Shown here piece by piece: positions 1-8,885 of a stretch of 47,691 nt of DNA. Origin of the DNA: Bacilli bacterium (lineage in GTDB: Bacteria > Bacillota_I > Bacilli_A > RF39 > UBA660); the NCBI GenBank assembly GCA_017511945.1, contig JAFWHR010000009.1, positions 1-47,691 on the forward strand, written 5' to 3'. Made by a program: the position numbers and the translations under genes. The notes beneath the pieces were generated by a model. The model was not told the DNA's origin and did no database searches. It saw nothing but the letters and a program-made list of their open reading frames with translations. Position 1 is the first letter of the stretch. The number at the start of each line of letters is the position of its first letter.

Positions 1-154
1 ACATCAAAAATGGATTTTCCTTTCTCTTATCTCCATGATACCATAACTTCTTATAATAATCCATATTGATGTGGACTATCTCAAATATGTCATCATTTAC
101 TTTATTATGTGATTTATCATCAGATATATATAACATTCGATATAAAAATGTCAT
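1..154 (-). CDS. Partial hypothetical ORF running off the left edge
   Basis: An open frame of 51 codons reads leftward from an ATG at 154 to the window edge, beginning MTFLYRMLYISDD. An AGGAAA stretch lies just before the ATG and an in-frame TAA lies eight codons upstream, so this ATG is the only candidate start here. The later part (IFEIVHINMDYYKKLWY) vaguely recalls the middle of PD-(D/E)XK nuclease-family transposases (Rpn-like), which normally have a catalytic N-terminus that would have to lie upstream. If that resemblance is real, this is a 5'-truncated remnant. The similarity is from memory and weak. Confidence 0.3.
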   Translation of the reverse strand, partial: MTFLYRMLYISDDKSHNKVNDDIFEIVHINMDYYKKLWYHGDKRKENPFLM

Positions 155-233
155 TTTCCTTTTTTTAGAATAATTTTAAGTGTAAAAAAAGTGTAAAAAA
201 ATAATGATAAAAATGATTTATCAAAAATATTAC

Positions 234-339: not shown

Positions 340-1680
340 ATGAGAAAAAGTGAAAGGGATAAGAGGACTTATCTAATAATAGGACTATGTGCGGTTTTAG
401 TAGTAATGGTAGTAGGATTTGCCGCATTTAGTAGTCAGCTACAAATCAATGGTACATCAGAGATAACAAGTAATTGGGATGTTAGAATAACTAAAATTGA
501 AAAAATAATACCATCAGGTAGTTCAGCAACTGATGTAAGTTCAGAGTGTTCAGAAAGTGGCACACCTAAACAATGTAATGATGGACTTACGGCAACAGTA
601 TCTGCTAATTTAGTATCACCAGGAGATTCTATAACTTATAGAATAGAGGTAACTAATAAAGGAAGTTTAAATGCAGTACTTAATCGTATTAATCTAAATG
701 ATCCATCAAACAACAATGTAGGATACTATATCAACAAAGATAAAAACAATCAAACTATAGAAGATACTGGATATAGATTACTTGAGACAAATGGAGTTTT
801 AAATGCAACAGGAGATAGTTTAGATAAAGGATATGTATATCTAACTATTTATTATAAAGAATATGAAGGACAAACATCGCCAACTGGAGGAAATAAAACA
901 GTTACAGCAACTGCGACATTTGATTTTGTTCAAACAAATAGTGATGCTGTTCCAGCAGCCGAATATAAAAATATAGGTGGCATTGATGTAGAAGTTGTAG
1001 ATACAGGAGATGGACTTTATAACAACGGAGATGGAACTTATACATATAAAGGAAGTGATCCTGCCAATTATTTAAATTTTGCTGGAAGCATATGGAGAAT
1101 ACTTGGAATAGATTCAACAGGTATTAAAATTATAAGAGATGAGAAATTAAATACAACTATGGCATTTGATACAGCAAATGCGAGAAAAACTGCTAATAAT
1201 CCTTATTGTACTGCTCCATCATATGGATGTAACGTGTGGTCAAAAGATTATACACCAGCAGGTTCATTTAATAATAAAGGATTAGTAAATGAAGATTCAA
1301 GTTTAAAAAAATATTTAAATGGTGATTATTTAACTACTACTTTAGGAAATAATCCAAATATAATAGAGGCAGCATATAATGTAGGACCACGTAATAAAGA
1401 ATCATCATATACATGGACAGGAAAAGTTGCTTTACTTACTGCTCCTGAATATAATGCTGCAGGAGGTTCTTCATCATATCTTAAAAAGTCTTCTGATTGG
1501 TGGCTCTTGTCTCCGGATGCGAGCAGCACGCACAGCGTGTTCTACGTCAGTGCTGGCGGCAGCTTCAGCAGCAACTTCGCGAGCAACGGCAGCGGCGTCC
1601 GTCCTGTTCTCTATCTATCATCTAATATCACAGTTACAGGAACAGGAACAGATTCATCTAATGCATTTACTATTTCATAA
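340..1680 (+). CDS. Membrane-anchored surface protein with DUF6273-type C-terminal domain and GC-rich variable segment
   Basis: The start at 340 is chosen because GGAGG (328-332) sits 7 bases upstream; an ATG at 301 has no site. The 446-residue product has a charged N-terminus, one hydrophobic segment (about residues 9-31) and an extracellular part. The middle resembles repeat or DUF11-like cell-surface domains (SPGDSITYRIEVTNKG). The C-terminal 200 residues (WRILGID, WWLLSPDA, GVRPVLYL) match the DUF6273/C-type-lectin-like pattern of gut Bacillota. Codons 394-421 (1519-1602) are almost all G/C-ending, 21 of 28 being NNC, whereas the rest of the gene is A/T-ending. This matches a diversity-generating retroelement variable region derived from AAC codons. 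No reverse transcriptase or template repeat is in the window. The surface location follows from the anchor; a ligand-binding role is inference. Confidence 0.75.
   Translation: MRKSERDKRTYLIIGLCAVLVVMVVGFAAFSSQLQINGTSEITSNWDVRITKIEKIIPSGSSATDVSSECSESGTPKQCNDGLTATVSANLVSPGDSITYRIEVTNKGSLNAVLNRINLNDPSNNNVGYYINKDKNNQTIEDTGYRLLETNGVLNATGDSLDKGYVYLTIYYKEYEGQTSPTGGNKTVTATATFDFVQTNSDAVPAAEYKNIGGIDVEVVDTGDGLYNNGDGTYTYKGSDPANYLNFAGSIWRILGIDSTGIKIIRDEKLNTTMAFDTANARKTANNPYCTAPSYGCNVWSKDYTPAGSFNNKGLVNEDSSLKKYLNGDYLTTTLGNNPNIIEAAYNVGPRNKESSYTWTGKVALLTAPEYNAAGGSSSYLKKSSDWWLLSPDASSTHSVFYVSAGGSFSSNFASNGSGVRPVLYLSSNITVTGTGTDSSNAFTIS
1504..1610 (+). other. GC-rich hypervariable-looking segment (candidate DGR variable region)
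   Basis: By my count 64 of the 100 bases 1511-1610 are G or C, in a gene that is otherwise roughly 30-35% GC. In frame, the segment is dominated by AGC (8), GGC (4), TTC (3), GTC, AAC, CAC and TAC codons, which are the products expected when adenines of AAC codons in a template are randomised. It ends at the conserved GVRPVL motif close to the C-terminus, where variable regions sit in C-type-lectin DGR targets. Confidence 0.55.
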
Positions 1681-7961: not shown

Positions 7962-8885
7962 ATGCAAAGATGCGTTCTTATTTGTAATCCGAATAGTGGA
8001 AAGAATGACAAAAAGTATTTAACCCGAGAGTTTAAAAAGATTTTAAGTGAAAGAGGATACAGTACTACTGTAATTTTTACTAAATATTCAGGTCATGCGA
8101 GAGGTATAATAAAATCACTTGAGAATATAGATTTAGTAATTTCACTTGGTGGAGATGGAACTTTTAATGAGATTGTAAGTGGTAATTTAAAAAGAAAAGA
8201 AAAACTTCTACTTTCTCATATACCTCTTGGAACTACAAATGATATAGGTGCGATGTTTGGAATGGGCAAAGATCCTATAGAAAATTTGAAGATGGTTTTA
8301 GATGGGGTAGTTAAACAGGTCGATATATGTAAGTTTAATGATTCATATTTTGTATATGTAGCAGGACTTGGTAAGTTTGTAAATATCGCATATGATACAC
8401 CTAGAGAGATGAAAGAAAAATACGGTTATTTTGCCTATCTTATGAATGCGATTAAATCTTTTAACAGTAAGACTAAACTATTTGAAGTTGAGTTTGATAG
8501 TAATGGAGAAGTATACCGAGGTTTATACTCATTTATGCTTATATGTAATGCATCTAGAATGGGTGGGATTGACGTTTTTGACGATGTAAAATTAGATGAT
8601 GGGAAGTTTGAGGTTCTTTTATCTAATATAACTAGAAAAAAAGATATCGTTAAAAGTTTACTTATGATTAAAACGTCAGATATCACTAAAGTACCTGGAT
8701 TTTACTATTTTAAAACTGACAGTTTAAAGGTAAAATTATATAAAAAACCAGATAAACATTGGTGCCTAGATGGTGAGGAATTAATCGATAATTCTTTAGA
8801 ATACAATATTAAAATTGTTAAGGATTTAAAGATGTTAATTCCAAATAAAAATATCGATAAAGTATTCGTAAATAATGACTTATAA
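7962..8885 (+). CDS. Diacylglycerol kinase family lipid kinase (DagK/YegS)
   Basis: The catalytic domain shows ICNPNSGKN at the N-terminus, the ATP-binding GGDGTFNEIVSG and the PLGTTNDI motif. These enzymes phosphorylate diacylglycerol or related lipids; in Bacillota DagK recycles diacylglycerol released during lipoteichoic acid synthesis. AGAGGTG precedes the ATG at 7962, which is preferred over the GTG at 7953 that overlaps the site. Length is 307 residues, typical. It has its own terminator hairpin at 8871-8898. Confidence 0.9.
   Translation: MQRCVLICNPNSGKNDKKYLTREFKKILSERGYSTTVIFTKYSGHARGIIKSLENIDLVISLGGDGTFNEIVSGNLKRKEKLLLSHIPLGTTNDIGAMFGMGKDPIENLKMVLDGVVKQVDICKFNDSYFVYVAGLGKFVNIAYDTPREMKEKYGYFAYLMNAIKSFNSKTKLFEVEFDSNGEVYRGLYSFMLICNASRMGGIDVFDDVKLDDGKFEVLLSNITRKKDIVKSLLMIKTSDITKVPGFYYFKTDSLKVKLYKKPDKHWCLDGEELIDNSLEYNIKIVKDLKMLIPNKNIDKVFVNNDL

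Follow-up and report, generated by a model that had tools for sequence, protein, structure and literature searches.

The 3′ end of a gene for a predicted membrane-anchored protein, close to one end of a contig from an AT-rich Bacilli genome, is abruptly GC-rich. Is this patch the variable region (VR) of a DGR target, as a sequence-only reading had proposed, and if so, where is the machinery that wrote it? The window, 47,691 nucleotides long, is the whole of contig C25 of the source assembly G000, which comprises 28 contigs and 909,893 bp at a completeness of 84.9%. The target gene begins about 300 bp inside one end of C25, and its vicinity on that side cannot be judged. Window positions 1-165 (- strand), at this contig end, encode part of a transposase-like PDDEXK_2 protein that exists in multiple copies and also adjoins the paralog on C7 (L129:1-612, - strand); the copy at the end of C25 may have caused the contig break.

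The target gene and its GC-rich patch

The target gene (340..1680, + strand), as judged from the ORF list, a Pfam match and its paralogs, encodes a protein composed of an N-terminal membrane anchor, a stalk and a C-terminal DUF6273 domain. The ORF spans 301-1680 and includes an in-frame ATG further upstream, at 301; position 340 (MRKSERDK) is the likelier start. The predicted membrane-spanning anchor YLIIGLCAVLVVMVVGFAAF (370..432, + strand) is a hydrophobic segment read from the translation, and the N-terminus is about 50% identical in amino acids among paralogs. The DUF6273 domain lies at 1291..1620 (+ strand) and was recognised by a Pfam profile search of the target protein (PF19789, amino acids 331-440, E 4e-10). 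The earlier description of the product as a membrane-anchored, DUF6273/lectin-like protein agrees with this predicted anchor and profile match.

DUF6273 has been reported as C-type-lectin-like, with VRs at the surface, in phage tentaclins (PMC10743442), and the C-lectin fold of the target domain is taken solely from that paper. An AlphaFold model of the window protein (10 sequences) had a mean pLDDT of 43.6 and was unusable as fold support. As in a C-lectin-like target with a 3′-end VR, the gene carries a DUF6273 match and the patch stops about 70 bp before the stop codon. No relatives of the window protein were obtained in scans of genome contigs and viral contigs, with zero matches in 50,697 phage records and none in IMG/VR.

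The putative VR (1507..1605, + strand), delimited by template alignment and codon permutation, is GC-rich, consists largely of NNC codons and runs from WWLLSP to GVRPVL. Over the 47.7 kb scanned, G/C content peaked at 65 per 100 bp at 1502-1601 (the earlier count was 64), the runner-up window reached 46, and the mean outside the patch was 26.7 (SD 5.7). The sharply bordered dominance of NNC codons, also described earlier, was recovered at codons 408-433, where 21 of 26 are NNC. With wider limits (codons 403-437) the proportion was 22/35, compared to 19/424 in the remainder of the gene (Fisher p = 1e-17). The patch shows the NNC/NNT codons expected from AAY templates, and it is open, with no stop codon.

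At the conserved 3′ boundary, the segment beginning GGCGTCCGTCCTGTTCTCTATC (1592..1629, + strand) lies where other DGRs have their IMH and, judging by that position, is a candidate IMH. Its 38 nt recur with 95% identity at C6:10220-10257.

Comparison of the patch with congeneric template repeats

Template-like repeats were found in congeners with a consensus template search, and many of them adjoin their reverse transcriptase (RT). In a MAFFT alignment the window patch was in register with 15 congeneric template repeats. Among conserved columns, defined as those agreeing in at least 80% of the 15 templates, the window kept 28/30 non-adenine columns and 16/32 adenine columns (Fisher p = 1.9e-4). 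We preferred this neutral MAFFT test, as Fisher values from the adenine-tolerant aligner are biased by its scoring. When templates were left out one at a time and treated in the same way, each kept nearly all columns of both kinds, including at least 25 of about 30 adenine columns; the window patch therefore behaves like a VR rather than a template. Permutation of the window codons never equalled the observed non-adenine agreement (0 of 20,000 trials), and the adenine change rate of about 50% is that of the proven VRs of another genome of the genus, G002 (73/144, see below). Compared over the full length with single congeneric templates, the window also showed about 12-19 non-adenine differences, and we infer the true template for this reason rather than see it.

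Adenine-specific randomisation, the origin first suggested for the patch, is in agreement with these results, since congeneric templates differ from it preferentially at template adenines. At the level of sequence comparison, it is strongly supported that the window patch is a VR of the congeneric DGR family, written by mutagenic retrohoming. Horizontal acquisition of a GC-rich segment would account for the sharp composition boundary, as would ordinary codon bias or selection acting on a binding loop, but none of these would explain why the patch is in register within a conserved domain, with a skeleton that corresponds to congeneric templates codon by codon, nor why like patches recur at the equivalent position in paralogs dispersed over the genomes of AT-rich congeners. 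We consider such an origin extremely improbable.

We propose that an adenine-rich template RNA of about LSPNANNTNNVFNVNANGNFNNNNANNNNGVRPV, mostly made of AAC codons, would be copied by a DGR reverse transcriptase and Avd, with random bases placed opposite template adenines, and that the mutagenised cDNA would replace the 3′ part of the DUF6273 gene. The template of the window species would be close to TTGTCTCCGAATGCGAACAACACGAACAACGTGTTCAACGTCAATGCTAACGGCAACTTCAACAACAACAACGCGAACAACAACAACGGCGTCCGTCCT. Because randomised adenines turn AAC into NNC codons, this process would leave a patch rich in GC within an AT-rich genome. The resulting protein would be membrane-anchored and have a randomised tip, which presumably serves as its binding site.

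The missing core and related tips in the source assembly

A DGR-type RT ([IL]GxxxSQ) was not found in the 84.9%-complete G000 with PF00078 and a congeneric RT alignment, nor was Avd (PF22296) in the same assembly, and the window gene is therefore classed as a VR rather than a complete DGR. A search of the genome for a template by the C/A, G/A, T/A pattern returned the window itself and nothing else. BLAST of the predicted template against 386 family genomes gave template-like matches in congeners and in other genera, while G000 yielded just the window VR. The only other template-pattern match was a poly-A tract of about 90 nt (G021:C42:21403-21506). That no RT or template lies nearby, as stated before, holds for the window and extends to the remaining assembly. 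A whole-genome check for an RT and a template of about 100 bp, on which the sequence-only reading had hung its proposal, was thus negative in G000 at its 84.9% completeness and positive for both in congeners.

Relatives of the window protein sharing the same N-terminus are encoded on C7, C24 and C20, and a two-domain protein on C18. The tips on C24, C20 and C18 form a second candidate target class, with GC-rich ends and a common post-stop sequence, TAGTAG.... The three differ from one another at 15, 14 and 7 of 51 at codon positions 1, 2 and 3, respectively. Their post-stop sequence is near-identical, unlike the varying tips. These tips resemble templates in G042 (L080) and in L298, in a test biased by the aligner, and the pattern search described above detected no template for this class in G000. 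Judged from sequence, G000 would hold at least three more candidate targets, of this second class. The idea that the patch is possibly one of several is supported by these GC-rich-tipped relatives on C24, C20 and C18.

A truncated DUF6273 3′ fragment is present at C6:10140-10308 (L004), with a constant end nearly identical to that of the window gene, a different tip and a coding-like 3′ end at C6:10220-10308; it is either a relic or a silent copy. At a distance of 1.3 kb upstream of it (8489-8809) there is a truncated N-terminus of an IS605 TnpB. As a template for the window patch the fragment was rejected, as its differences do not fall at its adenines and it is one codon longer.

Recombination with silent cassettes, in which gene conversion swaps ready-made 3′ ends into the expressed gene, would find a possible donor in this truncated copy, whose 3′ end is nearly identical and whose tip is different. 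Nevertheless, it was the one fragment found in a DNA search of the own genome; it shares the constant 3′ end and leaves the patch unmatched. Silent cassettes moreover predict neither an excess of differences at template adenines nor a restriction of variation to codon positions 1-2, and full DGR cores exist in congeners. The silent cassette family put forward earlier as an alternative is thus disfavoured by the single, non-matching fragment on C6 and the adenine-biased differences, and we regard it as very unlikely.

The main rival to a target still being rewritten is a fossil, that is, a VR made by a DGR of which the RT, Avd and template have since been lost, leaving the gene frozen. RT, Avd and template are all undetected in G000, the template is missing for both target classes, few targets remain compared to up to about 30 in congeners, and the fragment on C6 could be a truncated VR relic; Treponema denticola isolates with targets and without RT or TR provide a published precedent (PMC4891356). 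Against this, G000 is 84.9% complete, in 28 contigs, with the gene at a contig end, and TR/VR repeats are the type of sequence that breaks assemblies. Another genome of the genus, G030 (88% complete), likewise contains a template-like repeat and no detected RT. The VRs are open, with no stops, and about 50% of adenines are changed, as in proven VRs. Since about 15% of the genome is missing, the target lies at a contig end and the repeats break assemblies, absence does not settle between presence and loss of the core. We hold loss of the core to be possible, on the unlikely side.

Returning to the DGR reading as a whole, we consider it very probable that the patch is the VR of a DGR target and that the core acts, or acted, in trans on dispersed targets. 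In the assembly, the core (RT, Avd, MutS-I protein and template) would be unlinked to the target gene. G000 presumably still holds such a core, and continued diversification of the window gene in trans appears rather probable.

DGRs and remote targets in the genus, and known systems

In most congeners there is an RT, about 370 aa in length, that carries the DGR-type motif [IL]GxxTSQ as well as YMDD; part of the RVT_1 matches in the genus are group II intron RTs (QGxxLSP). The cassette order is target, template repeat, MutS-I protein (PF01624), Avd (bAvd; PF22296, NF033474) and RT. The MutS-I protein corresponds to the MSL accessory named in PMC10053308, and PF22296 was matched in 28/44 genus genomes at E <= 0.1. 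The RTs of this clade share no more than 36% identity with viral RTs.

Of 80 RT loci from publicly available MAGs of uncultured gut Bacilli, 37 contained an adenine-specific repeat pair; when the wildcard base was C, G or T instead, the numbers were 0, 4 and 2 of 80, respectively. A scan of RT loci gave TR/VR pairs in G013, G028, G042 and G044 that differ at 9-13 adenines and at 0-1 other bases, and a pair with 0 non-adenine versus 17 adenine differences in G019. Evidence for remote targets comes from G002, where a template of 102 nt with 36 A lies upstream of the RT. Four VRs, each on a contig of its own, deviate from this template at 17, 18, 18+1 and 20+1 positions (adenine + other), that is, at 73/144 adenine sites and 2/264 others (p = 3e-37). 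Five VRs of G003, located on as many contigs, have a common, unseen template, with 13, 12 and 1 variable columns at codon positions 1, 2 and 3. We consider remote targets in congeners proven by these sequence comparisons. In addition, a GC-rich NNC tip is common to many dispersed DUF6273 genes in G011 and G019.

Two further template copies in G002, identical and on other contigs (L227 on C4, L228 on C1), are located beside targets, downstream of DUF6273 genes at a distance of about 300 bp, and are followed by target-like coding sequence; templates thus sit at several places in one genome. At L226:2639-3301, also in G002, the RT-adjacent template shares its reading frame with a truncated IS605 TnpB-like ORF (HTH_OrfB and a DUF6273 tail), which suggests earlier mobility of the cassette. 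The template repeats at L070 (G003, about 2089-2190) and L192 (G026) both break off on the 5′ side at TTGTCGTATAATATTTTTTGTCATATAACGTG, which may be an insertion junction common to the two.

DUF6273 is much expanded in the genus, with up to at least 31 matches per genome at E <= 1e-3; true targets among these roughly 30 genes were sampled and not counted. RT presence was associated with DUF6273 count (p = 0.016), a relation confounded by completeness and group II intron RTs. In G012 (92% complete), at least 38 relatives of the window protein were found at E <= 1e-20 and no RT at E <= 1e-3, so that this genome is possibly another orphan repertoire. For the genus, we lean slightly towards a model in which a single RT core, or a few of them, would use several templates to rewrite in trans tens of membrane-anchored, lectin-like proteins that are encoded at dispersed sites and belong to two or more domain classes, the window gene being one member. 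If this is true, each cell would have a large hypervariable repertoire of surface receptors, and surface diversification in this clade of host-associated uncultured Bacilli may reach an unusually large scale.

Large DGR surveys cannot see VRs away from an RT (Roux et al. 2021, PMC8144416). Orphan VRs are recognisable by composition and codon pattern alone and can be confirmed with templates of sister species. In a limited search of the open-access literature, no publication dealing with DGRs of this clade turned up. There are precedents for remote VRs, for DUF6273 targets, for the accessories Avd and MSL and for targets that lack an RT; what is unusual here is the number of dispersed chromosomal genes of the target family, the several template copies per genome and the many VR-like tips.

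In Faecalibacterium prophages the C-terminus of DUF6273 serves as a DGR VR (PMC11792537), as at the window locus, and DUF6273 proteins are DGR targets among the tentaclins of phages nd4 and nd12 (PMC10743442). The DGR RT of nd12 is homologous to the RTs of the genus, with 34% amino acid identity. In contrast to these phage systems, the window target is chromosomal, non-phage and predicted to be membrane-anchored. The system also resembles the TvpA family of Treponema denticola (PMC4891356) and the remote CLec variable proteins of cyanobacteria (PMC7517822), with which it has in common a C-lectin-like 3′-end VR, adenine-specific rewriting and several dispersed targets per genome. It differs from both in that its targets are DUF6273 proteins of gut Bacilli, with several template copies per genome and MutS-I in the cassette, and from T. 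denticola, with its 2-7 targets, in the up to about 30 DUF6273 matches per genome.
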